64,000 bases of DNA from Kiritimatiellia bacterium. Its GTDB lineage: Bacteria; Verrucomicrobiota; Kiritimatiellia; CAIQIC01; Lenti-01. Numbering within the stretch: position 1 is the stretch's first letter; each line of letters begins with the position of its first letter. The position numbers were made by a program, and so were the translations under genes. The notes under the pieces are model-generated. The model was given only the letters and a program-made list of their open reading frames with translations. It did not search any database and was not told the origin of the DNA. Shown here piece by piece: positions 25,334 through 61,178 of this stretch. The stretch covers positions 1 through 64,000 of the forward strand of contig JAFXQI010000012.1 in NCBI GenBank assembly GCA_017527155.1. The letters are read 5' to 3'.

Positions 25334-25341
25334 GGGAGGGG

Positions 25342-25370: not shown

Positions 25371-25425
25371 GGGGATTCTCGTGATTGCAGAATTTGGAGG
25401 GGAGGATGGCGGGGGCGAGGCCGGG

Positions 25426-35956: not shown

Positions 35957-36682
35957 TCAGCCGTCGAACTGGACGGCGGCGGTGGCGCGGAGGCTGGTAT
36001 GCGGGGGCGGGGGCGGGCCGCGGCCGATGACGACGTGGTCGAGGACGGGGATGCCGACCACGCGTCCGGCATCGACGAGGCGGCGCGTCATGCGGAGGTC
36101 TTCGCGCGAGGGGTGCGGGTCGCCGGAGGGATGGTTGTGGGCGAGGACGATGGCGGCGGCCATGCAGCGGATGGCCTCGCGGAAGACTTCGCGGGGATGG
36201 GCGAGGCTGGTGTCGAGCAGGCCGGTGGTGATCTCGACGGGCGGCCGCAGGAGACGGTATTTGGCGTCGAGGGGCAGCATCCAGAAGACTTCCTGCGAGA
36301 GGCGCGCGGCGCGCGGGCCGAGCAGCTGCAGGACGGGCGCGGCGTCGAGGACGACGGGGCGGGCGCCGGCGGTGTCGGGGGTGGCGGAGCGGCGGCCGAG
36401 TTCGAGCGCGGCCTTGAGTTCGAGGGCCTTGACGGGGCCGAGCCCGGGGAGGGCGACGAGTTCTTCGACGGAGGCGTCGGCGAGCCGTTCGAGGGAATGC
36501 CCGGAGCGGGCGAGGACGTCGCGCGCGAGTTCGAGGACGCCCTGCCCGCGGCGCCCGCCGGTACGGAGGAGGATGGCCAGCAGGATGTCGTCGTCGGTGC
36601 GGTCGACGCCGCGTTCGAGGGCGATTTCGCGCGGGCGCGCCTTGCCGGGGATGTCCCGTATGAGCGTGGTCCGGGCGGTCAC
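35957..36682 (-). CDS. radC: RadC/JAB-domain DNA repair-associated protein
   Basis: The 241-residue product has an N-terminal helix-hairpin-helix-like part (IRDIPGKARPREIALERGVDRTDDDILLAILLRTG...LVALPGLGPVKALELKAALELG) and a C-terminal JAB/MPN metallo-domain with the zinc motif AIVLAHNHPSGDPHPSREDLRMTRRL (H-x-H, Asp). This is the RadC family; despite the name its role in repair is unproven, and the fold suggests a metal-dependent hydrolase. The start is GTG at 36682, overlapping the TGA of the upstream glycosyltransferase gene (GTGA). Confidence 0.92.
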   Translation of the reverse strand: MTARTTLIRDIPGKARPREIALERGVDRTDDDILLAILLRTGGRRGQGVLELARDVLARSGHSLERLADASVEELVALPGLGPVKALELKAALELGRRSATPDTAGARPVVLDAAPVLQLLGPRAARLSQEVFWMLPLDAKYRLLRPPVEITTGLLDTSLAHPREVFREAIRCMAAAIVLAHNHPSGDPHPSREDLRMTRRLVDAGRVVGIPVLDHVVIGRGPPPPPHTSLRATAAVQFDG

Positions 36683-37869
36683 GGGCGGCGCGGGAGGAGG
36701 GCGTCGATGGCCCCGGCGAGCTTTCGCTCGATGGCGGGCCAGGCGTATTCGCGGGCGACGAAGCGGCGTCCGTTGGCGCCGAGCGCGGCGCGGGCGGCGG
36801 GGTCGTCGAGCAGCCGGAGCAGCTCGGCCTCGAAGTCGGGGTAGTGGCGGAACCAGAGACCGGCCTGCGCGGCGCGGCACTGGGCGACGAGAACGCGGCT
36901 CTTGGCGTGCACGAGCGCCGGGGTCCCTGCCAGGAACGACTCCAGCAGCACGATGCCGAAGCTTTCGTTGACGGAGGGATGGATGAAGGCGACGGCGCCG
37001 GCCATTGCCTCGTGCTTCTCTTCCTCGGAGACGAATCCGGCGTCGAGGATGGCCGGACGCAGGGCGTCGGCGGCCTCGATGTCGCCGGAGCCGGTGAAGA
37101 CGACGCGGACATCGCGGCCGGTCCGCTCGCGGAAGGTCAGCATGTAGTCGCAGATGAGGGGCGTGCCCTTGAGGGGTTCGCGGCGTCCGCAGTAGAGGAC
37201 GTACGGGGCGTCGAGGCCGCGGCGGGCGGCGAAGGCGCGCGGGTCGGCGTCGAACGGATCGAGCCCCATGCCGACGGTGCGGGCGCGGGCGTCGGGGAAG
37301 CCGTAGAGCTCGCCGGCGAGCGCGCGTTCGGCACCGGAATTGAAGAGGCATCCGGCGACGGCGCCGAACATCGCGCGGATGGTCGCGAGCCGCGCGAACG
37401 GCTCGTCGTGCAGGCACGGGACGAGGAGGGTCTTTTCCGGGTGGGCCGTGGCGGCGGCGACGGTCAGGCCGAAGAGGTACGGCCCCGCGAGGACCGCACG
37501 GTAGCCGTCCGCGTTGGCCGCCAGGTGCGCGAGCAGCGCCGAGGAATGCACCCCGTTGCGCAGCCAGAGCGCCTCGTCCGCGGCCGGTACCGCCACCCCG
37601 CGGTCGATCTGCTGCTGGATGCGCAGGAAGGCGCCCTCGTCGCGGGGATCGACGGGGAAGAAGCGGACGGTCATGCCGTCGGTCTCTCGCGCGCCGGGCG
37701 GGAGGGTGTTCTCCCAGGTGTAGTGGTTCTGGGCGCAGGTGGTGAGGAAATCGACCTCGTACCCCATGCGCGCGGCATGGATGGCGAGGTTCTTGAGCAG
37801 CGTCTCGGCGCCGCCGACCGCGCCGTCCCCGGCGTAGCGGGGGGCGACGAACGCCAGGCGCTCAGCCAT
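36679..37869 (-). CDS. GT4 family glycosyltransferase
   Basis: The 396-residue protein has the GT-B two-domain layout. The N-terminal part begins LAFVAPRYAGDGAVGGAETLLKNLAIHAARMGYEVDFLTTC, and the C-terminal sugar-nucleotide domain contains YVLYCGRREPLKGTPLI and the E-x7-E signature within HPSVNESFGIVLLESFLAGTPAL. It is probably a hexosyl or mannosyl transferase of surface polysaccharide or glycolipid. Its start overlaps the end of the preceding coiled-coil gene by 8 bp, so both are coupled, and it overlaps radC at its end. The pairing with a coiled-coil protein suggests a membrane-associated glycan complex. Confidence 0.9.
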   Translation of the reverse strand: MAERLAFVAPRYAGDGAVGGAETLLKNLAIHAARMGYEVDFLTTCAQNHYTWENTLPPGARETDGMTVRFFPVDPRDEGAFLRIQQQIDRGVAVPAADEALWLRNGVHSSALLAHLAANADGYRAVLAGPYLFGLTVAAATAHPEKTLLVPCLHDEPFARLATIRAMFGAVAGCLFNSGAERALAGELYGFPDARARTVGMGLDPFDADPRAFAARRGLDAPYVLYCGRREPLKGTPLICDYMLTFRERTGRDVRVVFTGSGDIEAADALRPAILDAGFVSEEEKHEAMAGAVAFIHPSVNESFGIVLLESFLAGTPALVHAKSRVLVAQCRAAQAGLWFRHYPDFEAELLRLLDDPAARAALGANGRRFVAREYAWPAIERKLAGAIDALLPRRP

Positions 37870-38349
37870 CGCCGCGGGCCTTTCCGGGGGCCGCCGCCGC
37901 GCCCAGCCGCGCCTCCAGCTCCGCAACGCGCGCTTCCAGCTTGGCGATGCGGCCTTCCGTCTGTTCCTCGATGCCCTGGAGGGCGGTGATGACCAGGCCG
38001 TTGACCTGGTTCTGCTGGGACCAGAGGCGGTAGGTGTAGAACTTGAGGAGCTTCCAGATGACCTTCTTGAGCGCGACGAGGGCGGGGGCGAAGGCGCTGC
38101 GGCGCTCGCGGATCTCGAAGTCGGAGATGTCCACGAAGACCGCGTCCCGCAGGCACGCGAGATAGAAGGTGAGGAATCCGTCGGTGCCGCGCAGGTGGAC
38201 GAGGTTGGTCTTCTCGGCGCGTGCGACGCGGGCGTCGGAGTAGACGCCGTCGCGCATCTTGCGGTCGGCGGTGGCCTGGATTTCGGCGACGAGGCGCTCG
38301 ACGTCGAGCCCCGGCGCGCCGATGGACAGCAGCTGTTCGTTATCGCTCA
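37862..38349 (-). CDS. Coiled-coil protein coupled to GT4 transferase
   Basis: This 162-residue protein has a helical N-terminal half (LDVERLVAEIQATADRKMRDGVY...), a central segment LVALKKVIWKLLKFYTYRLWSQQNQVN that could lie on the membrane, and a C-terminal coiled coil (EEQTEGRIAKLEARVAELEARLG). Similar helical segments are found at the start of methyltransferases and glycosyltransferases in O-antigen clusters, where they are thought to organise the enzymes. No catalytic motif is seen. The start at 38349 is supported by a promoter 7 nt upstream. It overlaps the GT4 gene by 8 bp. Confidence 0.72.
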
Positions 38350-38356
38350 TGTCCGC

Positions 38357-38386
38357 CACTTTATCCCTCCCCTCCCATTCCATGCA
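38357..38386 (-). promoter_or_regulatory. Leaderless promoter of the coiled-coil/GT4/radC operon
   Basis: TTGCAT (38386-38381), 18-bp spacer, TAAAGT (38362-38357), 7 nt to the ATG at 38349. Confidence 0.7.
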
Positions 38387-38485
38387 ATGCAAAACCCTGC
38401 CCCTCCCCGGACGGGATTGCATCTCCGTTTTGTGCCCCCAGGGACGAAGGCGGGAAAATCCGGCACGGACGTTTTCCTACCCCAA

Positions 38486-38550
38486 GGTCGCGCGGAAGCG
38501 CGACCCTCCCGGTGTGCTCTCCACGGGGAGGGACGCGCTTCTGCGCGTCC
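38486..38550. repeat. Composite GC-rich double-hairpin element, complete copy
   Basis: GGTCGCGC-ggaa-GCGCGACC (38486-38505), a 25-nt middle with CTCCC/GGGAG that can pair, and GGACGCGC-ttct-GCGCGTCC (38531-38550). It is the reverse orientation of the copy at 10992. Confidence 0.78.
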
Positions 38551-38708
38551 GTGCTGGAAACGGAGGCGGCACAATGGGCTGTGGTTTCCCTGTTTCTGAA
38601 ACCGCTCGGGCGCCCCCGCCGCCGTCCGCGCATGATCCTGCCACGGGAGCGTCGGCCCCGTGAGCGGAGATGCGCCCTCCCGTCCGGACGGAATGGAAAA
38701 GGGGTGTG

Positions 38709-38775
38709 TTCATGGGCAAGGGGTATGGGTGGGAAAGGGTGGAATTGTTGGGGTTTCCCGTAATTGCAAAAGTGG
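38709..38775 (-). repeat. Dispersed ATG-ended module, copy 7
   Basis: Minus-strand reading: CTTTTGCAATTACGGGAAAC, 39-nt segment with CATACC, then CC-ATG-AACAC. Confidence 0.7.
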
Positions 38776-38830
38776 AAAGACCGGATGGCAGCAAGGCGGG
38801 AGCGGAATCTCCAGAAGTCGGGGAAGGCCG

Positions 38831-39871
38831 CTACGGGGCGTGGCAGACGCGGCGGAAGACGTCGCGGCAACGGCCGCAGCGGGTGCAGTCGGCAGCGCAG
38901 GTGGCGCCGATGCCGGATGTCGCCCAGTCGGGGGGGAAGAGTTTGTTGTCCACCACCAGGGGGGCGAAGGCCACCGAATGGTCGGGATCCATCAGCCCGA
39001 CCAGGTTGCCGTCGAAGGAATAGCCCGCGTACGCCCGCAGGATTTCGACCGGCCGCGGATGCCGGCGGGTCGCCAGCTTGAAGAGGGAGATTCCAGCTTC
39101 TTCCCAGAGGGGCACGTCTTCCGGGCGGATCCACGTCGCGCGGAGGAAATCCTCCAGGGCGTCCCCGCCGGCGGCGTAGTGGGTCTTGCAGCGGAAGAAG
39201 GAGAAGCCATACTCATCCGCCGCCGCCCGGTCCTGCGGCCGCCGCCCGTCGCCGTGCCCGTGGAGGTTGTCGTGGAAGGTCTGGAACGGGCATTCGCGCA
39301 GGCAGCCGCTGTTGACCTGCATGCCGACAGTCTTGCCGTTCGCGCGCGCCCAGTCCGCCATCCGCGCCGCGTAGGCGAGGTCGCGCTGGCGTTCGCGGGA
39401 GAGGTAGAACTCGTCGAACAGGTCCGCCGCGTAGCCGAAGCCCACCGAGCCGTGGATGCGCATGTTCACCGAGGCCCGGATGCGCACCGCCGGATACTTC
39501 ACCCGCAGCACCCGCGCGATGAACGGGGAGGTGGTCGTCACCGTGTCGGGGAACAGCCCTTCCTCCTCCATCTCGCCGAGCATGCGCGAGACGAAATCCG
39601 CTAGGCCGGTGCTGATGGCTTCGTCGCCGTAGCAGTTGGCGTTGAACAGCGTGTCGAGGCGGATACCGTTCGCCCGCGCCCATTTCAGGTCGCCGACCAG
39701 GCGGGCGCGGACCTCGGGGGTGAACTCCGGCGCCGGACGGCAGGAGAGCACGCCCGGCCAGGCGAAAAACACCTCGGCGATGCGCGGCAGCAGCGGCGCG
39801 CACGCCTCCCGGAACGGGGCGTTGTAGAAATGGCCGACGGCCAGGTTCCGTTTCACGGCGGGTTCGTTCAT
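38831..39871 (-). CDS. U32 family peptidase-like protein with C-terminal cysteine cluster
   Basis: The 346-residue protein resembles the U32 'collagenase-like' family, whose better-studied members (RlhA, TrhP, UbiU/V) modify RNA or quinones rather than cut peptides. It has a TIM-barrel-like pattern (ANGIRLDTLFNANCYGDEAISTGLADFVSRML, then RIRASVNMRIHG), the stretch NSGCLRECPFQTFHDN near residue 192, and a C-terminal cysteine cluster CAADCTRCGRCRDVFRRVC that could bind a metal or iron-sulfur cluster. The cysteine-rich C-terminus is reminiscent of UbiU/UbiV. A good promoter with AGGAGA precedes the ATG. The family assignment is by pattern and moderate. Confidence 0.75.
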   Translation of the reverse strand: MNEPAVKRNLAVGHFYNAPFREACAPLLPRIAEVFFAWPGVLSCRPAPEFTPEVRARLVGDLKWARANGIRLDTLFNANCYGDEAISTGLADFVSRMLGEMEEEGLFPDTVTTTSPFIARVLRVKYPAVRIRASVNMRIHGSVGFGYAADLFDEFYLSRERQRDLAYAARMADWARANGKTVGMQVNSGCLRECPFQTFHDNLHGHGDGRRPQDRAAADEYGFSFFRCKTHYAAGGDALEDFLRATWIRPEDVPLWEEAGISLFKLATRRHPRPVEILRAYAGYSFDGNLVGLMDPDHSVAFAPLVVDNKLFPPDWATSGIGATCAADCTRCGRCRDVFRRVCHAP

Positions 39872-39894
39872 GGTTCTCCTGTTCGCTTTCCGGT

Positions 39895-39923
39895 ATCTAA
39901 CAGGATAAGCGCCCGGTTGTCAC
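39895..39923 (-). promoter_or_regulatory. Promoter of the U32-like gene
   Basis: GTGACA (39923-39918), 17-bp spacer, TTAGAT (39900-39895); 23-nt leader with AGGAGA before the ATG at 39871. Confidence 0.65.
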
Positions 39924-39960
39924 GTCCGGTTCGCGCGGGGGGAGGGAACGGAGCGGTGCC

Positions 39961-41373
39961 TCAGCGGGCGATGGGGGTGTGCAGGCGGATGCCGTCGGGG
40001 ATGGTGGCGGGGCGGTCGGTGGGGTTGCGGAGGTGGACGGCGCCTTCGACGCGCACGTCGCGGCCGAAGCGGATGTCGCCTTCGACGGTCAGGGAGTCGC
40101 AGTAGAGGAGGGACGGGGCACCGTTGGGGAAGCGGAGCTCGAAGTCGGCGATGTGCTTGCAGTAGCGGGGGTCGAGGCGGATGTCCGGCGGCGGTGCGAA
40201 GCGCTGGGGATGCAGGGTGACCTGGTGGTCTTCGCCAAGGCGGTAGAGGTCGGAGCGGACGGCGAGCAGGTCGTTGGTGGTCTTGACGGGGGCGAAGCGG
40301 CGGCGCGGGACGACGAGCGCGGTCGCGCCCTCGAAGCAGGAGATGGCCGCCCCCATCGCGGATTCGAGCTGCACGACGGGCGTGCTGTCGGGGCGAACGG
40401 GGTCGACGGTCTTGCGGTTGACGATGAGGGGAAGGCTGAGGAGGCCGTCGTAGGCGGCCAGGGCGTCGCGCAGGGCTTCGAGATCGATCCAGAGGTTGTT
40501 GGTGTTGAAGAGGGAGTACTTGGCGATGTCCTGGAAGTCCTCGGTTTCGTCCGCCGGGCACTGGGCGGATTCGCGCAGGAGGAGCCGGCCGGACGCGCGG
40601 TCGCGGGCGAGGTGCCCGCCCTTGCGGTCGCATTCGGTGCGGGCGGTCACTTCCATCAGGAACGGGATCCGCCGGCGTGCGACGAACCCCAGGATGCCCA
40701 TGTGCAGGATGGCGCCGAGGTTGTCGGAGTTGGATACGAAGGCGTGGCGGTAGCCGGACGCGAGGAGGCGGTCGAGGAGGCCCGTGGTCTGGAGGGCGAG
40801 GTAGATGTCGGCGTGGCCGGGCGGGCACCACTCGAGCTGCGGGTTGTCGGGCCAGGTGACCGGTTCGGCGGTCTCCGCGACGAGCTTCGGCACGCGGTGC
40901 TGCAGGAACGACAGGGGCAGGCCGTCCGGGTTCGCGAAGCCGGGATGGTTCGCCGCGATGGACGCCAGGGAGTCGGCGTCGGTCGAGAAGCTGTCCATCA
41001 GGAGAAAGGGCAGCGGCGCACGGCAGCGGCGGCGCAGGAATTCGATCTGGCGGACCAGGATGTCCAGGAACGTCAGGCCGTTCTTCGCCACGATCAGCGA
41101 TTTGGCCTTGTCCAGCCCCATCCCGGTGCCGAGGCCGCCGTTGAGCTTGATGACGACGGTGCGGCGGATCGCTTCCTCGCCGGCGGGGTCCAGTTCGTCG
41201 AGGTCGGAGAGCTTCGGGAGGGGGCCGATGGGGGAGAGGTGGCGGCCGGGAATCACGCCCAGGTCGCCGGAACCCCAGCGGCGCACGTTTTCGAGGAAGG
41301 AGCGCGCGACGAGCGGCGGCGTGCGGTCGGAGTCGAGGCGGGCGCGGATGGAGGCGAGGGGAAGGGAGGGCAT
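39961..41373 (-). CDS. UDP-glucose/UDP-sugar pyrophosphorylase (UDPGP family)
   Basis: This 470-residue enzyme is a UDPGP-type nucleotidyltransferase, the eukaryote-like class rather than bacterial GalU. The nucleotide-binding loop is VVIKLNGGLGTGMGLDKAKSLI near residue 68. LPFLLMDSFSTDADS, EWCPPGHADIYLAL and AFVSNSDNLGAILHM follow in the family order, and a left-handed beta-helix-like C-terminal part (GDIRFGRDVRVEGAVHL) ends the protein. It makes UDP-glucose or another UDP-sugar for glycan synthesis, in line with the glycosyltransferases nearby. The ATG at 41373 is preferred over an upstream TTG in frame. It is 31 bp downstream of the zinc-ribbon gene. Confidence 0.9.
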   Translation of the reverse strand: MPSLPLASIRARLDSDRTPPLVARSFLENVRRWGSGDLGVIPGRHLSPIGPLPKLSDLDELDPAGEEAIRRTVVIKLNGGLGTGMGLDKAKSLIVAKNGLTFLDILVRQIEFLRRRCRAPLPFLLMDSFSTDADSLASIAANHPGFANPDGLPLSFLQHRVPKLVAETAEPVTWPDNPQLEWCPPGHADIYLALQTTGLLDRLLASGYRHAFVSNSDNLGAILHMGILGFVARRRIPFLMEVTARTECDRKGGHLARDRASGRLLLRESAQCPADETEDFQDIAKYSLFNTNNLWIDLEALRDALAAYDGLLSLPLIVNRKTVDPVRPDSTPVVQLESAMGAAISCFEGATALVVPRRRFAPVKTTNDLLAVRSDLYRLGEDHQVTLHPQRFAPPPDIRLDPRYCKHIADFELRFPNGAPSLLYCDSLTVEGDIRFGRDVRVEGAVHLRNPTDRPATIPDGIRLHTPIAR

Positions 41374-41404
41374 TTCAGGCAAAATCCAAAACGGGGTCGG
41401 GCCT

Positions 41405-42298
41405 TCAGGGAATGTCCTGGAGGGTCATGTCGAGGTCGTGGGCGGCGGTGGCGAGTTCGTCGGCGCGGCGGGCGGCTTCGAGCTGGTGCAGGCGGATGGC
41501 TTCGGCCTTGCGCTGGACGGGGGGCACGAGGAGAACCGGGTCGACGGCGGGGAGATAGGCGACGATGCCGGGATGCAGCTCGGAAAGGCGGTAGGTCGCG
41601 GTGCCGCCGCCGAAGCGGACCGATACCTGGTCGCCGTCGATGCCCGTGATTTCCGCGTTCTCGCGCAGGGTCTGGCCCTTCGCGCCGACCAGCGCGGGGA
41701 AGAGCAGCGTCCGACCGCTGTTCTGCAGGCCGCGGCCGGCTTCGGCGTCGCCGAACTCCGGCGCCGCCGGGAGGGCCGCCTTCGCTTCTTCGAGACGTTC
41801 GCGGACGTCGGCGCGGACGATCGCCTCCTGGTCGCGCTTGCTGTTCTCGATCAAGCGGTTTTCGGCGTCGTCGAGGGCGCGGAGGTAGGTGGTGGCGAGA
41901 TCGAGGATGGCGCGGGCCCGGTCCTCCACGGCGTCGATGCGGTCCTGGGTCTTGTCCTTCTGCTGGATCTGCTGGGCGGCGAGGCGGAGTTCGAGCTGCT
42001 CGGACGCGTCGTCGAGGCGGTCGCGGAGGTCGGCCGCCTCGGCTTCGGCGGCGGCGGCGCGGGCGTTGGCGGCGCGGCTGGCGTACGCCCCCCACGCGGC
42101 GGCGGCGGCCAGCAGGACGATGACGGCCACGGCGGCGATGGTGCGGGCGTGGCGGCGGAAGCCGGAGGTCTCGGACGGCATGTCGGGAATCTGGATGGGT
42201 TCGTTGCACTCGGGGCACTTGACGATGAAGCCGGCGCCGCGCTCGTCCACTTCCAGGTTGTGGCCGCATTCGGGACAGTCGAAATTGATGAACGCCAT
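41405..42298 (-). CDS. Zinc-ribbon membrane protein with coiled-coil domain
   Basis: The 297-residue protein starts with a zinc ribbon (FDCPECGHNLEVDERGAGFIVKCPECNEPIQIP, two CxxC pairs), followed by one membrane helix (about residues 52-72) and a long coiled coil (AAAEAEAADLRDRLDDASEQLELRL...). The remaining region contains a small beta-domain (LRENAEITGIDGDQVSVRFGGGTATYRLSELHPGI) similar to secreted domains of PVC proteins. It has no known family name. The ribbon would be cytoplasmic and the coiled coil periplasmic, suggesting a sensor or adaptor. Promoter and AAAGGAG leader support the start at 42298. Confidence 0.78.
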   Translation of the reverse strand: MAFINFDCPECGHNLEVDERGAGFIVKCPECNEPIQIPDMPSETSGFRRHARTIAAVAVIVLLAAAAAWGAYASRAANARAAAAEAEAADLRDRLDDASEQLELRLAAQQIQQKDKTQDRIDAVEDRARAILDLATTYLRALDDAENRLIENSKRDQEAIVRADVRERLEEAKAALPAAPEFGDAEAGRGLQNSGRTLLFPALVGAKGQTLRENAEITGIDGDQVSVRFGGGTATYRLSELHPGIVAYLPAVDPVLLVPPVQRKAEAIRLHQLEAARRADELATAAHDLDMTLQDIP

Positions 42299-42338
42299 GA
42301 TTCGCTCCTTTCGGGGGTCGGTTCCTTGTCTCATCCGC

Positions 42339-42367
42339 ACCTTACCCCCAAAAGGGGCGGACGGCAA
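42339..42367 (-). promoter_or_regulatory. Promoter of the zinc-ribbon gene
   Basis: TTGCCG (42367-42362), 17-bp spacer, TAAGGT (42344-42339); leader of about 40 nt with AAAGGAG. An ATG-ended module starts 30 bp upstream. Confidence 0.75.
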
Positions 42368-42396
42368 GCCCGCAGGCGGGGGGGAAGGGGATGCTG

Positions 42397-42463
42397 TTCA
42401 TGGGCAAGGAGGATGGTGGAAAATCCATGGAAAACATGGGATTTTTCCTGTTTCCAAAAGTGG
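42397..42463 (-). repeat. Dispersed ATG-ended module, copy 8
   Basis: Minus-strand reading: CTTTTGGAAACAGGAAAAA, a segment with TTTTCC and CATCCT, then CC-ATG-AACAG, which ends 30 bp before the -35 box of the zinc-ribbon gene. Confidence 0.7.
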
Positions 42464-42583
42464 GCGGAACAGGGGGATGGCAGGGGGCCGGTGGAGATGG
42501 GGCGAGGGCGGGATGGGGGAAAAACGGGACAGCCGGCGCACGGGGCGCCGGCTGCCGGGGGGAGAGGGAATGGGACGGCGGGG

Positions 42584-44353
42584 CTACTGGCCGGCGGCCA
42601 CCTTGGCGGCGACCTGTTCGCGGATGTGGCGGAGGACTTTGGGGGAGTATTCGTAGGGGCCGACGTAGTCTTCGGGGAATTCGGTCTGGTTGATCAGGCG
42701 CACCTGGCGGGCGTGGTTGAGTTCGCCCCAGATCTGGCGGGAGGCGGTGATGGCGCGGTAGCGGACCCAAGCGGATTCGGCTTCGGTCTTGGCTTCTTCG
42801 CGTTCGGCGGGGTCGGTGGCGGTGGCGGCGCGCTGGTCGGCGAGGATGGCGCGTCCGCGGATGCCGGCGAGGTATTGTTCGTTGCGCTGGATGCCGCGGC
42901 GCCAGTCGCGCTGCTGTTCGAGGAAGTCGTTGAGGCCGTTCTTGAGGTAGTATTTGGTGAAGTCTTCGGCGAATTTCTGCTTGGAGACCTGGTTGACTTT
43001 GTAGAGGTCGAGCTGCTGGCCCCAGGTGATGGTGGTGTTGCCGCCGAGGGCGAAGTTGATGTTGCCGTAGACGCCTTCCAAATGCGGCTCGAAGGCCTGC
43101 AGGAGCGGGATGATGTGGGTGCCCTTGATGGCGGGAATCCAGCCGATGCAGCGATTGAGTTCTTCGTTGCCTTTCTGGGAGGAGAGGAAGAGGAGGAAGT
43201 CGAGGGCGACGTCGAAGTGCTGGCTGGAGCGGGTGATGCCGAACTGGAAGCCGACGCCGGGGGATTCGTAGATGCGGCCTTCGACGACGCCGCCGTAGAC
43301 GGGGTCGTCGGGGGACGGCAGGGGGAAGTCCATGATGCCGATGTCGAACTGCCCGCGGGCCTGCTCCATGAGGGACCCGGCGTCCCAGGTGCCGGTGGTC
43401 ATGAAGACGGCGCGCTGCTGGGCGAAGAGGAAGACGGCTTCGTCGCGCCCGAGGCCGGTGTAGCCGGTCTGGAAGTAGTCGGTGACTTCGCGGATCATGG
43501 TGAGCCAGGCGTCGAGGGGCGGGTAGGTGAAGTCGAGGAGGCCCGTCTTGAAGGCGACGTAGGTTTCGTCGTTGCCGACGAAGCCGTCGCGGTTGAAGTC
43601 GGCGCGCCGCAGGCAGCCGTAGGTGACGGGGGAGAACATCATCGGGTCCCACTGGCCGTAGTGGTAGGCGCTGCCCGCGATGGCGATGTAGGGCTGGCCG
43701 GTGGCTTCGTTGGTGGAGTGGGCGATCTTGTCGCAGACGGCGAGGAATTCGCGGTAGTCGAGGGGGGCTTCGTCGAGGCCGGTGAGTTTTTTCAGGAGGG
43801 TCTTGTTGTAGAAGATGCGGGTGCCGAAGAGGGTCAGCGGGATGGCCATGTACTCCTGCATTTCGGCGACGTAGGCGGTTTTCATGCCGTCCTTGTAGGT
43901 CTGGCGGAGGGGGGTGTCGGCGAGTTCGGTTCCGGCGTTGTAGGGGTTGGGCGCGGAGACGTAGCGGGAGAGGGGGTGGAAGTAGCGGTTGTAGTAGCTC
44001 AACCAGATGTTGCCGGGCAGCTGCCCGCCCACCTGCAGGATGTCCGGCGCGGTGCCGCCCATCAGCTGGGTGGAGACCCACTGGCCGTAGGTGCTCTCGG
44101 GGATGGCGTCCTGGATGATGCGGATGTCGAGATCGGGGTGGAGCTTGCGGTACTCGTCGGCGAGCTGGTTGAGGCCGTCGCGGACGCCGGCTTCGAGCTG
44201 CCAGTGGCCGAGGCGGATGACGACGGCGTCGGGCGGGGTCTGCTCGGCGCGGTAGGTCACGATGACGAACGCCGACCAGACGAACACCGCCAGGACGACC
44301 AGCAGCGCGAAGTAGGTGCGGACGAAGTTGAATGCGGCGGAAATCCATTTCAT
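42584..44353 (-). CDS. Membrane-anchored extracellular solute-binding protein with EF-hand-like insert
   Basis: This 589-residue protein begins with a hydrophobic anchor (residues 14-32) and has the fold of ABC-type sugar-binding proteins (family 1 type): VVIRLGHWQLEAGVRDGLNQLADEYRKLHPDLDIRI, STQLMGGTAPDILQVGG, MAIPLTLFGTRIFYNKTLLKKL and FLLFLSSQKGNEELNRCIGWIPAIKG. Near residue 250 the loop DFNRDGFVGNDE matches a 12-residue EF-hand calcium site. No permease or ATPase genes are near, so uptake must use distant partners, or the protein works as a sensor. It shares an operon with the upstream TPR lipoprotein, 3 bp apart. Confidence 0.83.
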   Translation of the reverse strand: MKWISAAFNFVRTYFALLVVLAVFVWSAFVIVTYRAEQTPPDAVVIRLGHWQLEAGVRDGLNQLADEYRKLHPDLDIRIIQDAIPESTYGQWVSTQLMGGTAPDILQVGGQLPGNIWLSYYNRYFHPLSRYVSAPNPYNAGTELADTPLRQTYKDGMKTAYVAEMQEYMAIPLTLFGTRIFYNKTLLKKLTGLDEAPLDYREFLAVCDKIAHSTNEATGQPYIAIAGSAYHYGQWDPMMFSPVTYGCLRRADFNRDGFVGNDETYVAFKTGLLDFTYPPLDAWLTMIREVTDYFQTGYTGLGRDEAVFLFAQQRAVFMTTGTWDAGSLMEQARGQFDIGIMDFPLPSPDDPVYGGVVEGRIYESPGVGFQFGITRSSQHFDVALDFLLFLSSQKGNEELNRCIGWIPAIKGTHIIPLLQAFEPHLEGVYGNINFALGGNTTITWGQQLDLYKVNQVSKQKFAEDFTKYYLKNGLNDFLEQQRDWRRGIQRNEQYLAGIRGRAILADQRAATATDPAEREEAKTEAESAWVRYRAITASRQIWGELNHARQVRLINQTEFPEDYVGPYEYSPKVLRHIREQVAAKVAAGQ

Positions 44354-44356
44354 GGG

Positions 44357-45406
44357 TCAGTCCTCCTGGGGGGCGGCGGCGGTTTTCTTGGCGCGCTTCT
44401 TCGCGGGCTTCGGGGGGGCGGGGGGCTCGGCGGCGGCGGCGGCGGCGCCGTCGGCGGGGGCCGCTTCGACGGCCGGCTCCGCGGGCGCGGGGGCGGGCGC
44501 GTCCGCCGACTTCCCGGCGGCGAGTTCGGCGCGGATGCGCGCCTCCATGGCATCCATGCGTTCGAGGGCCTGCTTGCAGCCGTGGACGCGGATGTCGTTG
44601 GGGTACTCGCGGAGCAGCTCCTTGTAGTACTTGCGGGCGAGGTCGAAGTCGCCGACCTCGAACTCCGCGATCGTGCCGAGGTTCCAGTAGGCCCAGGCGT
44701 ATTCGACCGACGGGTCGAGCGGGTCCTTCTCGACGTTCTCGAACGACTTCTCCTCCGCGTGGAGCCGCTTCTCCTGCTCGTCCATCGTGACGTACGCGAC
44801 GGTCAGCAGCGACCACGCCGGGCTGACGAACTCGTGGTCCTCGTGCGAGATGAACTCCAGCAGGTTCGACTCCGCGACGCGCGAACTCTCCGGCGCCAGC
44901 TCCGAGAGCCGGATGCCTTCGAGATAGAGGAACGCCTCCTTCGCCGCGAGGTGGCCGGGATACGTGTCCATGATGTGCTGGAAGCCGGCCTTGACCGCGT
45001 CGTAGTCCGGCTCCTTGCCGACGGGCACCAGATGTTTCTGCCGGACCAGCGCCAGCTCGACCCAGGGCGCGATGGGCGAATTCGGGGCCTTCTCCATCGC
45101 CTCGTTGAAATACTTCGTCGCCTTGGCGGGGTCCTCGCCGGGGCGCTGGAGGTCCCACACGATGCCGAGCCCGTAGGTGGCCATCGCCCAGTCGTCGGAG
45201 CCGACCTCGGCGGCGGCGCGTGCGGCCTCGAAGTGGCGTATCGCGTCGTGGAACTCGTTGAGGCGGTAGGCGGTCCACGCCTGGTTGACGATGTCCTTGA
45301 CGTCGCCCTCGGCGGCGACATCGCCGTCCTTGGAGCACGCGCCGCCCGCGAGCGCGACCGCGAGGCCCACCGCGAGGAAGGCCGGGAATCTGAAATGAAA
45401 AGCCAT
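44357..45406 (-). CDS. TPR-repeat lipoprotein
   Basis: The 349-residue protein has a lipoprotein signal (FPAFLAVGLAVALAGGAC, lipobox AGGAC) and about six tetratricopeptide-like helix pairs (for example AWTAYRLNEFHDAIRHFEAARAAA, AWAYWNLGTIAEFEVGDFDLARKYYKELLREYPNDI). The C-terminal 60 residues are Ala/Pro/Lys-rich and disordered. It should be a protein-interaction scaffold on the periplasmic face. The ATG at 45406 has AAAGGA 8 nt upstream and is preferred over the ATG at 45415. The following gene is the solute-binding protein. Palindrome array D lies directly upstream of its promoter region (CATAGT about 45450). Confidence 0.85.
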   Translation of the reverse strand: MAFHFRFPAFLAVGLAVALAGGACSKDGDVAAEGDVKDIVNQAWTAYRLNEFHDAIRHFEAARAAAEVGSDDWAMATYGLGIVWDLQRPGEDPAKATKYFNEAMEKAPNSPIAPWVELALVRQKHLVPVGKEPDYDAVKAGFQHIMDTYPGHLAAKEAFLYLEGIRLSELAPESSRVAESNLLEFISHEDHEFVSPAWSLLTVAYVTMDEQEKRLHAEEKSFENVEKDPLDPSVEYAWAYWNLGTIAEFEVGDFDLARKYYKELLREYPNDIRVHGCKQALERMDAMEARIRAELAAGKSADAPAPAPAEPAVEAAPADGAAAAAAEPPAPPKPAKKRAKKTAAAPQED

Positions 45407-45521
45407 GGGATGCATCCTTTCTCCGGCAAGCCGGACCATCACCCCTCCACTATGCCGCTTCCCTCGGCGGGCTTCCAGCACAAAATTGGCCCCGCCGCGG
45501 CGCGGCGCCGGAGGGCGCGAA

Positions 45522-45645
45522 TTTTCCAATCATTGGAAACATTTTTTCCAATCATTGGAAAAATGCCGAAAATTTTTTCCAATCATTGGAAAAAACGGAC
45601 GGATTTTTCCAACCATTGGAAAAATATTTTCCAATCATTGGAAAA
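45522..45645. repeat. Palindrome array D (five units)
   Basis: Units are centred at 45531, 45553, 45584, 45614 and 45636: spacings 22, 31, 30, 22 bp. Four cores are CCAATCATTGG and one is CCAACCATTGG. The array lies between the stop of the MlaE gene (16 bp away) and the TPR lipoprotein promoter. Confidence 0.93.
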
Positions 45646-45661
45646 CTTTTCCGGGGCCGGG

Positions 45662-46453
45662 TCAGAGGTAGGCGGCGACGGAGATGAGCACGGAGACGAC
45701 GAACAGGGCCGCGATGGAACGGATGACGCCGCGGGTCGCCGCGATCGGGACCGCGCTGAAGGTGTGGCCCGCGGACAGGCCTTCTTCGCAGCAGCACGCG
45801 CCCGTCAGCATCCCGGGGAGGATCGATTTCGCCAGCAGGATGAACACGTCCGCCGGCCCCAGCGCCCCCACCACGTTCGCGAAGAACCGCGGCATCGAGA
45901 AGCCGCCCGCGTCCATCAGCCACAGGCACGCGAAGCCGCCCAGGAAGGATACCGTGCAGAAAACCACCGACAGGCAGAAGACCGATACCGCCACGCCGAG
46001 GATCCGCGGCATCGCGAGGTAGACGAACGGATCGAGGCCCATCGCGTCCAGCGCCCGGACTTCGCCGTTCACCGCCATGTTCGCCAGCTCCGTCGAGATC
46101 GCCGTGCCGCTGCGCGCGATCACCGCGAAGTTCGTCAGCAGCGGGCCCAGTTCGCGCACGAGAACCGTCACGAGCACCGGGCCGATGAGCGCCGTCTGGC
46201 CCAGCTTGTTCAGCCAGATCTGCGCTTCGACCACCGCCAGCACCCCGGACAGCAGCGCGATCAGCGAGACGAAGCCCGTCGCTTCGTAGCCCGTGAAGAG
46301 GATCTGGCGGGCGACGACGTTGCGGAAGGGGAGCGTCCAGGTGCGCGGCTGGAGGGCTTTCCAGACGACCGCGAAGAGGGTCCCGGCCTGGCGCGCGACG
46401 GCGCCGAGCCGGGCCAGGGTGGCGTTGCCGATGGACCCGATCCAGTTGTTCAT
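45662..46453 (-). CDS. mlaE: MlaE-type ABC transporter permease
   Basis: This 263-residue membrane protein belongs to the MlaE/YrbE permease family, which moves phospholipids or other lipids between membranes. It contains about five helices and the family segments GYEATGFVSLIALLSGVLAVVEAQIWL, LGPLLTNFAVIARSGTAISTELANMAVNGEVRALDAMGLDPFVYLAMPRILG and SCFCTVSF-like later helices. Its usual partners (ATPase MlaF, substrate-binding MlaD) are not adjacent. The start at 46453 is chosen because the only upstream in-frame ATG lies inside the -10 box of a leaderless promoter. Confidence 0.88.
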   Translation of the reverse strand: MNNWIGSIGNATLARLGAVARQAGTLFAVVWKALQPRTWTLPFRNVVARQILFTGYEATGFVSLIALLSGVLAVVEAQIWLNKLGQTALIGPVLVTVLVRELGPLLTNFAVIARSGTAISTELANMAVNGEVRALDAMGLDPFVYLAMPRILGVAVSVFCLSVVFCTVSFLGGFACLWLMDAGGFSMPRFFANVVGALGPADVFILLAKSILPGMLTGACCCEEGLSAGHTFSAVPIAATRGVIRSIAALFVVSVLISVAAYL

Positions 46454-46460
46454 GGCCCGG

Positions 46461-46490
46461 AGCATACGCCAAGGGAGGGGGCGCGGGCAA
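46461..46490 (-). promoter_or_regulatory. Leaderless promoter of mlaE
   Basis: TTGCCC (46490-46485), 18-bp spacer, TATGCT (46466-46461), 7 nt to the ATG at 46453. Confidence 0.75.
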
Positions 46491-46522
46491 GGAGGGAAGA
46501 AGGGGGGCGAGGAGGGGGATTT

Positions 46523-46589
46523 TTCATGGTGGGGAGGATGGGGGAGGAATGGGGGAAAATGTGGAGGTTTTCCGTGTTCTCAAAAGCAT
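46523..46589 (-). repeat. Dispersed ATG-ended module, copy 9
   Basis: Minus-strand reading: CTTTTGAGAACACGGAAAAC, a segment with TTTTCC and CATCCT, then CC-ATG-AAAAAT, ending 32 bp before the -35 box of mlaE. Confidence 0.7.
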
Positions 46590-46689
46590 GCGGCCCGGCG
46601 TCCGCGACGCCCCCCGGCATTTCGGGATGGTCCCGGACGGCTTTTGGAGTATAAGGAAGCCACGGAACGAACGCGAAAGGATGTCCAGC

Positions 46690-47850
46690 ATGAAGAAATC
46701 GGATGCGGTGGCGCTGTTGCGCCGGTTGGTGTCGCTGCCCAGCGTGGAACCCACGCAGACGGACCGGCCGGGGGAGATCGGCGGGGAGGCGCGCATGGCG
46801 GACTTCTTCGCCGGGTACATGGAGAATCTCGGGTTCGACATCGAGCGGCAGGAGGTCCTGCCCGGGCGGTGCAACGTCATCGCGCGGCGCGGGCCGGCGG
46901 ATCCGGAGCGTACCTGGTTGCTGGAGTCGCACATGGACACCGTCGGCATCGACGGGATGCTCCACGATCCGTTCGCCGGCGAAGTCCGCGACGGCCGCCT
47001 CTACGGCCGCGGTGCCGCCGACTGCAAGGGCGCCATGGCCGCCGCGATGGATGCGCTCGCCCGCATCGACCTCGACGCGGTGGCCGCGCGCGGCGACGCC
47101 ATCCTCTACGTCGGCGCCATGGGCGAGGAAACCGGCAACAACGGCGCCCGCGCCGTGCTGCCGCTCCTGCCGGAGCGCATCAGCCGGACCATCGTGCTGG
47201 AGCCCACCGAGGCGCAGGTCGTGCACGCCAGCAAGGGGATCGCCGCGCTCGAAATCGACTTCACGGGGCGCTCCGCGCACGGGTCGAACCCCGAGGTCGG
47301 CCTCAACGCCATCTACGCCGCGATGGAGTTCGTCGCGCGCCTCAAGGCCTACGCCGCCGCCGAGGCCGCCGCGCACCGGCATCCGCTCGTCGGCGCGCCG
47401 TCGATGAACGTCGGCGTCATCCGCGCCGGCATCGCGCCGAACGTCGTGCCGCCCGCCTGCCACCTCGAACTCGACTGGCGCGTGGTGCCCGGCGAGGACA
47501 TCGAGGACGTCAAGACCGCGCTCCGCGGCATCCTCGCCGACATGGTCCGCGAGGGCCTCTGCCTCGACGCGGCGCTGGAGCAGACCCAGCAGAACTGCCC
47601 GCTGGTGACGCCGGGGGATTCGCCGCTGGTGCGCGAACTGGTGGCCGCCTGCCGCGCGTCGGGGCTCGACAGCGCTCCCGGCGGCGTCCGCTGGTGCTGC
47701 GACGGGTCGGTGTTCTGCCCGCGTTCCGACGAGACGGTGGTCTTCGGTCCCGGCAGCATCAAGCAGGGCCACGCCACCGTCGAGTACATCGCCACCGCCG
47801 AACTCGAAGCCGCCTCCGACGCCCTCGCACGGCTGCTGGCCGGCGGGTGA
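46690..47850 (+). CDS. M20 family peptidase / deacetylase (ArgE/DapE type)
   Basis: The 386-residue protein is an M20 metallopeptidase. Zinc ligands and catalytic residues are in place: LLESHMDTVGIDGM, LYGRGAADCKGAMAAAM, AMGEETGNNGA and LEPTEAQVVHASKG, and the dimerisation-domain histidine is in GRSAHGSNPEVGLNAI. The late PGSIKQGHATVEYI block also matches. Substrates in this group are N-acyl amino acids or small peptides, so it may be ArgE, DapE or acetylornithine-like; the sequence alone does not decide. The ATG at 46690 has AAAGGA 8 nt upstream and is preferred to the ATG at 46681. Confidence 0.88.
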   Translation: MKKSDAVALLRRLVSLPSVEPTQTDRPGEIGGEARMADFFAGYMENLGFDIERQEVLPGRCNVIARRGPADPERTWLLESHMDTVGIDGMLHDPFAGEVRDGRLYGRGAADCKGAMAAAMDALARIDLDAVAARGDAILYVGAMGEETGNNGARAVLPLLPERISRTIVLEPTEAQVVHASKGIAALEIDFTGRSAHGSNPEVGLNAIYAAMEFVARLKAYAAAEAAAHRHPLVGAPSMNVGVIRAGIAPNVVPPACHLELDWRVVPGEDIEDVKTALRGILADMVREGLCLDAALEQTQQNCPLVTPGDSPLVRELVAACRASGLDSAPGGVRWCCDGSVFCPRSDETVVFGPGSIKQGHATVEYIATAELEAASDALARLLAGG

Positions 47851-47864
47851 ACCGGGAGCCGTGG

Positions 47865-48824
47865 TCAGAATACCAGTCCGGCATCGGCGAGCGAACGCCA
47901 GGATTCATAGCGGAGCGCGCCGGGATGCCAGAGGGTGAAGTCGGGGTCCTTTTCCAGGAGGGCGGAGTAGGCCTTGTATTCGGCGGAGCCGTTCCAGTAG
48001 ACGTCGCGGGAGGCTTCGCGGACGACCTTCGCGTGGAAATCCTGGAGGTACTTGAAGTGGAGGACGGCCGCCTGGTGGGCGGAAAGCAGCCCCCCTTCGA
48101 GGGTATGCAGTCCCCGCCGCAGGAACATCCCCGGGTCATACCGGAAGAGCGGCACCTTGGAACACCCGAACTCCCCGCCGAAGACGCGGGCGCGGGTGCC
48201 GCCCATGTAGATGAAGTCGGACCCGGGGCCGGAAAAGACCTTGCGGTAGGCTTTCTTGGAATAGCAGCCGGGCGGATCGAAGTACGGCGCGGCGTCGAGG
48301 AGGTTCCCGCCCCGGACGTAGCGGACGGCGGAAATGGGGGAGCGGGGGAACATCTCGACGAAGACGGCATGGAGCGCCTGCGCGCCTTCGGCATCGAGGC
48401 CGCGGACGAGGTCCGGCAAGGACCGGGAATCCATGTCCGGATAGGAGAAGAGTTCGTCGGCGTCGAGCACGAGGCACCAGCGGCCGCGCGCGTAACGGCG
48501 GAGGAGGGGCTCCTGCCAGTAGAGGGGGCCGCGGTAGGTTTCGGCGGAGGAGAAGACGTGGATGCGGGGGTCGTCCCGCACCAGGTCGAGGGTGCCGTCG
48601 GTGGAGACGTTGTCGATGAGCAGGACGCGCGAAACGCCGAGGCGGAAATGGTAGTCGAGCATGAAGGGCAGCCGCAGCGCCTCGTTCCGGCAGACCACCA
48701 TCATCCAGACTTCGCCGGGCTTCCATTCGGGCATGGGGTGCGGGTCCACCCGCACCAGATGCCGGGCCGCCTGCCAGCGGCGGACGGCGCGGTTGAGGCG
48801 GATTTCGAGGCGTTCGCGGAACAT
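47865..48824 (-). CDS. Family 2-like glycosyltransferase (DUF23/GT92-like)
   Basis: The 319-residue protein has the GT-A start VWMMVVCRNEALRLPFMLDYHFRLGVSRVLLIDNVSTDGTLDLV and the metal motif LVLDADELFSYPD. KVFSGPGSDFIYMGGTRAR near residue 205 and VLHFKYLQDFHAKVVREASRD near 270 are typical of the Glyco_tranf_2_4/GT92-like transferases that act on surface glycans. The sugar is unknown. It lies 24 bp after a methyltransferase gene and is the last gene of a cluster of transferases and methyltransferases, so a polysaccharide or glycoprotein decoration role is likely. Confidence 0.83.
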   Translation of the reverse strand: MFRERLEIRLNRAVRRWQAARHLVRVDPHPMPEWKPGEVWMMVVCRNEALRLPFMLDYHFRLGVSRVLLIDNVSTDGTLDLVRDDPRIHVFSSAETYRGPLYWQEPLLRRYARGRWCLVLDADELFSYPDMDSRSLPDLVRGLDAEGAQALHAVFVEMFPRSPISAVRYVRGGNLLDAAPYFDPPGCYSKKAYRKVFSGPGSDFIYMGGTRARVFGGEFGCSKVPLFRYDPGMFLRRGLHTLEGGLLSAHQAAVLHFKYLQDFHAKVVREASRDVYWNGSAEYKAYSALLEKDPDFTLWHPGALRYESWRSLADAGLVF

Positions 48825-48848
48825 GGAGGCGGGGGCGGGGAAGGCGGC

Positions 48849-49565
48849 TCAGAACGTCTTCCCGAAATACTTGTGCAAGAAGGCCCGTTTCGCGAGGGAC
48901 AGGCCGTATCGGGGGTCTTCCGCGTTGACTTTGCCCAGCCAGGCCACTGGATGGACGATGTCCAAGGGCAGGACCAGACCACGCTCCCCCCGCAGGGGGG
49001 CGCTGTCCTTCACGTACAGCAGCATGTTCTGGGAATACCAGCACGGGATGGAGTCGTCGTTCCAGAACCGCGGGCGGACGCAATCCGCCGGGGAATATCC
49101 GAGGTCGGCGAACAAGCCCGCCCAGAACCCCTGCCAGCGTTCGTTGACATGGTGGTATCCGCCCTGCCGGGGGATGGCGGCCGAGAACAGGACGTAGTCC
49201 GACAAGCGCGTCAGGTCTTCCACGAACCCGGGCGCCCTCTCCGGCGGAAGGTGTTCGGCTACTTCGAGGGAGATGGCCAGATCATACCGGACGGGCCAGT
49301 CGAGCGGCTGCTCGAGATCGACGCGCTTGAGCATCTCCACCGGGATTTCCAGTTGTCCGTCCTCCACCCAGAAGCCGTCGAATCCCTGAAGTGTCTCCAA
49401 GCCTTTTTCGCGCAGGGCGGCCAACCAGGCACCGACCCCGCACCCCACGTCGGCCGCGGATGCCGTGCGGGGCAACATCGGCAAGACGATATCCAGGATG
49501 GCGGAGGCGGCATGGTGGGTGTCCCGGTTCCGGGTGGAATAGAAATACGGTTCGTACTGCTTCAT
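48849..49565 (-). CDS. Class I SAM-dependent methyltransferase
   Basis: This 238-residue protein carries the SAM-binding motif ASAADVGCGVGAWLAALREKG near residue 37, with LAISLEVAEHLPPERAPGFVEDL for the acidic residue and strand 4, and a C-terminal helical part. It probably methylates a sugar, lipid carrier or protein in the surrounding polysaccharide cluster. It has its own promoter with only 6 nt to the ATG, so it may be leaderless. Downstream is the GT92-like transferase. Confidence 0.85.
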   Translation of the reverse strand: MKQYEPYFYSTRNRDTHHAASAILDIVLPMLPRTASAADVGCGVGAWLAALREKGLETLQGFDGFWVEDGQLEIPVEMLKRVDLEQPLDWPVRYDLAISLEVAEHLPPERAPGFVEDLTRLSDYVLFSAAIPRQGGYHHVNERWQGFWAGLFADLGYSPADCVRPRFWNDDSIPCWYSQNMLLYVKDSAPLRGERGLVLPLDIVHPVAWLGKVNAEDPRYGLSLAKRAFLHKYFGKTF

Positions 49566-49571
49566 GGGGGC

Positions 49572-49601
49572 ATGATGGTTGACATTCGGCTGGATTTGCA
49601 A
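49572..49601 (-). promoter_or_regulatory. Possible leaderless promoter of the methyltransferase gene
   Basis: TTGCAA (49601-49596), 18-bp spacer, CATCAT (49577-49572), 6 nt to the ATG at 49565. Confidence 0.55.
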
Positions 49602-49611
49602 GCACAAAAGG

Positions 49612-50583
49612 TCATCTGCCGGAAATCCGCTCCGCCGGTTCCAGAAGGAAAGCGGCCTGGTCCCCGACGGCCATGGCATTCGCCCATTTCGCCCAGCGGG
49701 CGAAGCGCGCGATGTCCTTGCGCCGGAAATGGGTCTGGGTGGGGTCGTGGGCGAAGGAACGCGGGTCGTTCATGCCGATACCCATGCGGTATTCCTCGCT
49801 GACCCAGAACTGGTCCTTGTTGGAATCGTGCCAGCATCCGGCAACGCTGAACCCGCATTTCCGGGCCAGGATGGAAAGGCTCTTTTGGGTGAACAGGTTG
49901 AGGTGTCGGGGGGCGTCGAGCTGGAACCAGTCCGCGCCGTAGCGCCAGAAGGCAAGGGAATCGGCCAGGGGAACCCGGACGACGACGGTCCCTCCCTCCA
50001 ACAGGCGTCCGCGGGCGCATTCCAGGTCCCGTCCGGGATCGGGCACGTGTTCCAGTGAATGGCTGAACAGGATGCCCTTGTAGGAACCCGGTTCGTTTGC
50101 GATATCCCGCCGGCAAAGGCGCACGCCTTCCGGCGTGTCCTCGTCCCCGGGCAGGAATGGGTCGATCCCCGTGCAGTCGAGTCCGGCGGCCTGCAGTTCA
50201 CGCAAGAAGTTGCCGGCTCCGCATCCCACGTCGAGGAACCGGTCTCCCGGACGCAGGCGCATGGTGGAGAGCCAGTCTGCGTACCAAGGCTTTTTGAGGG
50301 CCAGCATGAGACGGCCCATGGGCGTTCCTCCGCCCAGCATGACGGCGGTCCGGGTCTTGTGCAGCCATCTCCACCACCACGGCAGGCGCCGACGGGAGTA
50401 GGAGTAGTAGCCGTGGCCGTAGTAGCGCCCCATGTCCTCCGGGATGGAGACCAGATGCAGGTGGCCGCACTCCGGGCAGGACGCATACTGGAAGGGCTCG
50501 CGCGTTCCCTGCATCATTTCCCGCACGGTGAAACAACGGATGCCGTCCGCGTTCCCGCAGATGTTGCACGTCCTTCCGTCCAT
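49612..50583 (-). CDS. Class I SAM-dependent methyltransferase with N-terminal zinc-finger motif
   Basis: The 323-residue protein begins with a CxxC...CxxC motif (CNICGNADGIRC...CPECGHLHL) that likely binds zinc, as in several polysaccharide-cluster methyltransferases. The SAM domain starts FLDVGCGAGNFLRELQAAGLDCTGIDP near residue 118, followed by ILFSHSLEHVPDPGRDLECARGRLLEGGTVVVRVP. The typical C-terminal helices follow. It is 3 bp from the next gene (rhamnosyl-type transferase) and in the same operon direction. The methyl acceptor is unknown. Confidence 0.87.
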   Translation of the reverse strand: MDGRTCNICGNADGIRCFTVREMMQGTREPFQYASCPECGHLHLVSIPEDMGRYYGHGYYSYSRRRLPWWWRWLHKTRTAVMLGGGTPMGRLMLALKKPWYADWLSTMRLRPGDRFLDVGCGAGNFLRELQAAGLDCTGIDPFLPGDEDTPEGVRLCRRDIANEPGSYKGILFSHSLEHVPDPGRDLECARGRLLEGGTVVVRVPLADSLAFWRYGADWFQLDAPRHLNLFTQKSLSILARKCGFSVAGCWHDSNKDQFWVSEEYRMGIGMNDPRSFAHDPTQTHFRRKDIARFARWAKWANAMAVGDQAAFLLEPAERISGR

Positions 50584-50586
50584 TCG

Positions 50587-51402: not shown

Positions 51403-51428
51403 GGACACCTTGGATGACACCTCCACTC

Positions 51429-51457
51429 ATCATGCGTGCTTTGCCGTTCCGTGTCAA
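51429..51457 (-). promoter_or_regulatory. Promoter of the rhamnosyl-type transferase gene
   Basis: TTGACA (51457-51452), 17-bp spacer, CATGAT (51434-51429). The -35 box is directly adjacent to the target duplication of the insertion sequence. Confidence 0.7.
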
Positions 51458-51473
51458 AGCTTTTGCGGACAGT
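51458..51473. repeat. Left 16-bp target site duplication of the IS
   Basis: AGCTTTTGCGGACAGT, repeated exactly at 53046-53061 on the other side of the element. Confidence 0.85.
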
Positions 51474-53045: not shown

Positions 53046-53061
53046 AGCTTTTGCGGACAGT
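53046..53061. repeat. Right 16-bp target site duplication of the IS
   Basis: AGCTTTTGCGGACAGT, identical to 51458-51473. Confidence 0.85.
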
Positions 53062-53101
53062 GGCCTGGTGTGGGACGGCAAGGGCCCGCGGAGAGTCGGT
53101 G

Positions 53102-53130
53102 TTGCATGGCTGACTGGATGCTGGTAGAGT
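53102..53130 (+). promoter_or_regulatory. Promoter of the methyltransferase gene at 53189
   Basis: TTGCAT (53102-53107), 17-bp spacer, TAGAGT (53125-53130); leader of about 50 nt. Confidence 0.6.
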
Positions 53131-53188
53131 CCATGCTGCGGATACGGGAACGGACGTGGTGTCCACTTCGACCGGAGAACGACAAAGA

Positions 53189-53791: not shown

Positions 53792-53821
53792 GGCAATGTC
53801 GGGAGCTGCCCCGCCCGGCGG

Positions 53822-61169: not shown

Positions 61170-61178
61170 GGTGGGAGG

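Follow-up and report, generated by a model that had tools for sequence, protein, structure and literature searches.

The short intergenic module examined here, which ends in CC-ATG-AA, appears from its sequence to be an orphan operator-promoter of an amplified, autoregulated gene family, that is, a control region that was copied together with its start, and we put the probability of this reading at roughly one half. The genes of the family share the layout of the module in register, and the classes of box found at its 5' end are common to genes and orphans. The window, a stretch of 64,000 nucleotides from a Kiritimatiellia bacterium, belongs to a draft assembly of 3.23 Mb (G000), for which a sister species, also a draft assembly (G001), serves as the closest comparison.

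Modules in the window and in related genomes

All nine copies listed in the preliminary description of this DNA are present where it had placed them, those at 8873 and 24192 on the plus strand and the remaining seven on the minus strand. When the search profile is widened to all box classes, the window holds ten orphans and, in addition, the promoters of two genes. The tenth orphan, absent from the first list, lies at 3919-3986 on the minus strand and belongs to a third box class (GATATCAAGGAAAA). The other minus-strand orphans are found at 344-412 (box of the GGAAACAGGAAAAA class), 11118-11184 (GAGATTATGGAAAA), 11414-11478 (GAGATTACAGAAAA), 13528-13595 (GAGATTACGGAAAA; between convergent genes and kept in the sister species), 38706-38775 (GCAATTACGGGAAA), 42394-42464 (GGAAACAGGAAAAA; the copy named in the preliminary description, 95 nt upstream of gene 41405-42298), and 46520-46588 (GAGAACACGGAAAA; 54 nt upstream of gene 45662-46465), with gene starts, here and below, being approximate because the calls came from a codon-usage script. 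On the plus strand, the orphan at 8873-8939 (GAGATTACGGGAAA) is likewise kept in the sister species, and gene 9018-10847 starts 78 nt downstream of it; the orphan at 24192-24258 has a separate box class (GCAATCACGTGAA) and faces the 3' end of gene 24467-25333.

That gene and gene 60216-61169, both on the minus strand, are the two whose promoter and start are themselves the module, and both belong to the amplified family of proteins of about 310 amino acids. The module at 61160-61228 (minus strand; box GGGAACACGAAA, -35 TTGACA, -10 CATCCT, CC-ATG-AA) provides the leaderless start of gene 60216-61169, which encodes 317 amino acids, and the module at 25325-25389 (minus strand; box GCAATCACGAGAA, -35 TTGACA, -10 CACACT, CC-ATG-AA) provides the promoter and start of gene 24467-25333, which encodes 288.

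Beyond the window, the 11-mer ATTACGGAAAA has 54 exact matches in G000 and its reversed control has none. Allowing at most one mismatch, GAGATTACGGAAAA matches 102 times in G000 (controls, 0), 104 times in G001, 53 times in G002, which represents a related genus, and 13 times in G003, with at most one match in each of 13 further members of the taxonomic family. Two other boxes are confined more narrowly, with a few family genes counted in: G000 and G001 contain 79 and 24 copies of GATATCAAGGAAAA, respectively, and 22 and 25 copies of TTTGSAAACAGGAAAAA, with none of either in the controls or in G002 and G003. A profile search over 260 kb gave more than 50 strong matches against none in the reversed sequence, and the genome-wide search that the preliminary description had proposed yields at least 150 copies each in G000 and G001; all copy numbers of the module are lower bounds. 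Literature searches did not find a module of this kind described.

Anatomy and conservation of the module

From its 5' end, a full module reads TTTTG-AGATTACG-GAAAA, 8 nt, TTTTC, 4 to 5 nt, GTTTTCC, followed by CCATNCT, about 6 nt, and CC-ATG-AA[A/C][A/G]. The box at the 5' end spans about 18 bp (TTTTG-AGATTACG-GAAAA and its class variants), and the first A/T tract is T-rich or, in some copies, A-rich. The constant distance from box to ATG that had been noted in seven copies extends to the larger sample: when 141 orphans are aligned on their ATG, ungapped, A occupies positions -42 and -41 in 96 to 97%. In the same sample, similarity does end shortly past the ATG, running to about +7 (ATGAA[A/C][A/G]) and then stopping.

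A column-by-column comparison of 47 family-gene starts with the 141 orphans finds the box, the -10, and CC-ATGAA[A/C][A/G] in both sets, and the box-to-ATG spacing is as constant in the genes as in the orphans. A -10-like hexamer, [C/T]ANNNT within -15 to -5, is present in 61% of orphans and 91% of family genes. The -35 TTGA, 17 to 18 nt further upstream, is seen in 19% of orphans versus 81% of family genes, and its scarcity in orphans counts against the operator-promoter reading. Orphans carry A/T tracts at -31 to -29 and -21 to -19, and the genes are without such tracts. As the orphans lack a -35 and carry two extra A/T tracts, they form a class of their own rather than a set of decayed gene promoters. 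A core combined with phased A/T tracts is also the composition of the Haemophilus uptake-signal sequence, and an uptake signal was considered as another candidate identity.

Conservation between the two species follows the consensus. Across 15 ortholog pairs, mismatches number 18/420 in the 28 consensus columns versus 51/345 in the variable columns (4.3% versus 14.8%; P = 4.5e-7), in a pool that includes a few pairs lacking homology in one flank, a point against our reading; flanking DNA differs by about 10% downstream and about 17% upstream. Judging from these counts, the orphan consensus columns are under purifying selection. The suggestion that the module might be a mobile relic of a gene start holds only in part: the module does belong to an amplified gene family, yet the orphans differ from the promoters of its genes and show this selection.

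Three other identities were considered and set aside. The module does not read as an ECF-type sigma promoter with -35 GGAAAA and -10 GTTTTC, given that the family genes have TTGAC and TANNNT-like boxes in register and no GTTTTCC. Folds of single copies vary and share no common hairpin, which speaks against an intrinsic hairpin, and a known RNA is equally disfavored, as the Rfam 15 covariance models gave no match above the gathering score in the window.

The amplified protein family

Genes that combine the leaderless layout with the box come almost entirely from one family of about 310 residues, with at least 43 members in G000, at least 43 in G001, and 10 distant members in G003; among the other genomes of the taxonomic family that were tested, none has a member. 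The module is the promoter and start in nearly all of 49 members sampled from G000 and G001. Searches of Pfam and NCBIfam with the family gave no match above cut-off. AlphaFold models reach a mean pLDDT of 86 for the whole protein and 91 for a 155-residue core, and their comparison with the PDB gave no significant Foldseek match and VIA-align Z scores no higher than 4.0 (whole model) and 2.7 (core). One member weakly matched NCBIfam sigma-factor models (E = 0.0003), and ten others did not, so this was treated as chance. A transposase fold was rejected, whole-model and core-domain searches of the PDB and of viral structures being without significant match.

A strongly hydrophobic segment near the N-terminus, present in 49 of 51 members, is probably a membrane helix. 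The protein also contains the stretch G.KGWL...YST.MRYK.LA, which we suspect to be a helix-turn-helix-like motif. A DNA-binding domain was confirmed neither by Pfam nor by a fold match, and this weighs against the operator-promoter reading.

Box classes and inverted boxes

Boxes differ by subfamily of the protein, the classes being GAGATTACGGAAAA; GGGAACACGAAA or GGAAACAGGAAAAA; GATATCAAGGAAAA; GCAATCACG[T/A]GAA; and GGCACCACGGTTTT, and several of these are carried by orphans. In the GATTACGG and GATATCAAGG subfamilies, every gene has a second, inverted box in its 3' coding region, about 750 to 790 nt from the ATG, and inward-facing box pairs therefore cluster at 721 to 770 bp (7 of 18). The promoter box and the inverted 3' box of one gene are the same variant (GATTCCAG with GATTCCAG, GATATCAAGG with GATATCAAGG); over 14 genes, the two boxes within a gene agree at a mean of 15.3 of 20 positions versus 11.0 between genes. 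Some members of two other subfamilies have an inverted copy 200 to 260 nt past the stop codon, among them the window pair 24192-24258 and 25325-25389, in which the orphan and the promoter box of gene 24467-25333 are of the same class. The same protein family, again leaderless, occurs in G302, G253, and G346, which belong to another family of the class; there, the box upstream of the -35 is in reverse orientation, and inverted repeats lie towards the 3' side. Since the orientation of the box to the promoter can flip and the box co-varies with its gene, these patterns point to a protein-binding site, and the protein that binds it is probably the family protein itself.

Boxes that face each other across family genes could also be expected if the modules were solo or unpaired ends, similar to terminal inverted repeats, of mobile units that carry a gene of the amplified family in their interior. 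Its product would then recognize the ends, the promoter and start codon would lie inside the left end, and the orphans would be leftovers or non-autonomous derivatives. The spacing of the inward pairs, a 29-bp inverted repeat that flanks the genes in G302, several inverted repeats on both sides in G253 and G346, the joint amplification of family genes and modules in the same two genomes, and the resemblance of ATG-less modules to the 3' type of box all fit such units. However, two G302 copies stay homologous past the 3' repeat, as far as the stop codon, and the G302 copies show no target-site duplication. Inverted boxes span only some family genes, most subfamilies lacking the 3' box, and orphans alone have no terminal inverted repeats. 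The copies are moreover diverged and selectively maintained, and wherever the two species have preserved their gene order the positions of the copies agree; neither a transposase fold nor a transposase family was found. We therefore consider mobile ends an unlikely source of the modules.

Module-like copies without -10 and ATG were noted at L107:2840 and 5253, L110:11716, L121:2282, L109:2265, and in L125. One ATG-less copy (L110/L030) lies within a 2.1-kb stretch with 98% identity between G000 and the other genus, G002, suggesting either that DNA was transferred recently or that one of the assemblies is contaminated. At four loci (L045, L137, L141, and L149), assigned to G002, the box appears as tandem 18-bp repeats (GTGCGAGATTACGGAATTTC GTGCGAGATTACGGAAAAAC), and the promoter half is absent.

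Search for a coding signal downstream of the ATG

The preliminary description had proposed a promoter-plus-start cassette for tiny proteins or a small-RNA promoter, and each module could accordingly be active as the promoter of a small leaderless ORF or small RNA of its own. The geometry of the module does equal that of real leaderless genes, of which G000 offers 28 independent leaderless-like examples (TTGAC, 17 nt, a TANNNT-like -10, 6 to 7 nt, CC-ATG), and orphans retain the A-rich, G-poor start ATGAA[A/C][A/G]. For L170 and its ortholog L213, at least, the ATG opens a real gene outside the family, with weak similarity to the DUF367/TSR3 family. Yet over about 150 copies, the ATG frame has no coding signal and no stop-codon depletion, and the codon score is equal in the three frames. 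Some ortholog pairs also differ by frame-breaking indels of 1 or 2 nt right after the ATG. As there is no coding signal after the ATG and frames are not kept, tiny proteins are unlikely, and with the window also free of Rfam matches we regard this proposal in its full form as improbable. Its promoter half fares better: by analogy with leaderless genes of the same genome that share the box, -10, and CC-ATG-AA register, the module may well be a promoter joined to a start, and it may drive a small RNA.

Genomic context

Among 157 full copies from G000 and G001, those in co-directional gaps point with the genes in 63 cases and against them in 12 (P = 1.7e-9); copies also sit in divergent (44) and convergent (25) gaps. 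Gaps of at least 180 nt hold a module in 6 of 13 cases in the window, an unbiased sample, and in 73 of 124 cases in sampled loci that were chosen for holding copies. Within a sample chosen for elements, the convergent gaps of this length hold one in 10 of 20 cases versus 44/75 and 19/29 elsewhere. The preliminary description had remarked on strong -35 boxes downstream of copies 8 and 9 (42394-42464 and 46520-46588), and -35/-10 pairs are readable there (TTGCCG-17-TAAGGT at copy 8). More generally, a separate -35/-10 pair frequently precedes the next gene, 25 to 60 nt beyond the module. Because modules are present in convergent gaps too, driving the next gene was rejected as the sole function of the module. 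These pairs count against the operator-promoter reading, and so does the near-equal frequency in convergent gaps, which a promoter for the next gene leaves unexplained.

The 40 nt or so between the upstream stop codon and the module are C-rich and G-poor. A Rho-type terminator of the upstream gene was rejected, since divergent gaps show the same skew, which thus belongs to the surroundings of the module and not to the upstream gene.

That the modules are sites of chromosome cutting and rejoining, with transcription units shuffled as blocks between them, is improbable. On the one hand, gene order is broken at 13 of 14 orphan-module gaps in unbiased stretches of two species whose genes are 95 to 99% identical, and in some ortholog pairs homology is confined to one side of the module. 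On the other hand, module-free gaps of at least 100 nt are also often broken (7 of 11; the excess at modules is not significant, Fisher P = 0.13), G000 and G001 are both draft genomes, eight or more gaps with a module are conserved, and the point of homology change inside the module varies.

Proposed mechanism and relation to known systems

If the modules are orphan operator-promoters, the family proteins would bind the box and through it regulate their own genes. The same box at orphan sites would be bound likewise, which would either activate a weak promoter or keep it silent. RNA from such a promoter would start at the A of the ATG and would mostly run into the next co-directional gene, giving that gene an additional start further upstream, and transcripts in convergent gaps would be short and non-coding. 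The ATG-AA of an orphan could thus represent the 5' end of a leaderless RNA and not the start of a conserved protein.

Autoregulated DNA-binding proteins have operators at their own promoter and inside or after their own gene. The family resembles them in having a promoter box and a matching inverted box at the 3' end of the gene whose variants co-vary, and it is unlike them in that a single genome contains at least 40 paralogs whose box classes are private to them, as well as hundreds of orphan operator-promoters that retain a start codon. Leaderless sigma70-type promoters are similar in their -35, 17-nt spacer, and -10 about 7 nt before the ATG, as in the 28 genes here; orphans depart from them in lacking the -35, in their two A/T tracts, and in having no gene behind the ATG.

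It could be speculated further, although we consider it distinctly unlikely, that at least 40 paralogs, each with a probable membrane helix and a core that recognizes a box class of its own, mark several hundred promoter-like sites in about half of the long intergenic gaps and form a genome-wide system of tethering or insulation whose protein-DNA code has diversified, and not an ordinary regulon. Should the operator-promoter reading be right, one lineage would have amplified an uncharacterized protein family along with its control sites, the protein-DNA pairing would have diversified into classes, and several hundred operator-promoters bearing start codons would have spread over the chromosome. 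Such variant proteins paired with variant sites would offer natural material for deciphering the recognition code and a test case for the purpose of leaderless transcripts without a protein.

MITEs and Correia-type elements (reviewed in PMC10969869) are short, dispersed intergenic copies that number in the hundreds and may carry promoters. The modules are likewise short, dispersed, intergenic, and present in hundreds; they differ in that the orphan has no terminal inverted repeats, no target duplication was found, and their orientation bias with the genes is fixed. Gene-less integron cassettes with promoter activity (PMC11014356) similarly represent gene-less units that carry promoters, but here no integron or attC site was seen, and the copies are spread over the whole genome.

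Other repeats and gene order around the modules

When window positions 1-20000 and 36000-56000 are compared with G001, gene order is almost wholly shuffled while the genes are 95 to 99% identical; the counterparts in G001 are blocks of 1 to 4 kb spread over separate contigs, and almost all transcription-unit boundaries show a break. Genes 9018-10847 and 11582-13354 represent a duplication relative to G001, each bordered by modules (8873-13595). The region 48849-51138 is inserted relative to G001, and its genes have unusually low codon scores.

Another dispersed repeat, some 130 bp in length and with a long hairpin (TAGGGCGAGC...GCTCGCCCTACC), is found in the window at 38466-38607, 45522-45660, and 13629-13785, as well as at L103:2500-3600, and has dozens of copies in G001 at 80 to 95% identity. 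Four units of about 284 bp stand in tandem at L103:2746-3662, every one of them a module followed by this hairpin repeat. Short tandem palindromes of the TTTTCCAATGGTTGGAAAA type, with T-runs between them, occupy 24258-24400 and other intergenic stretches.
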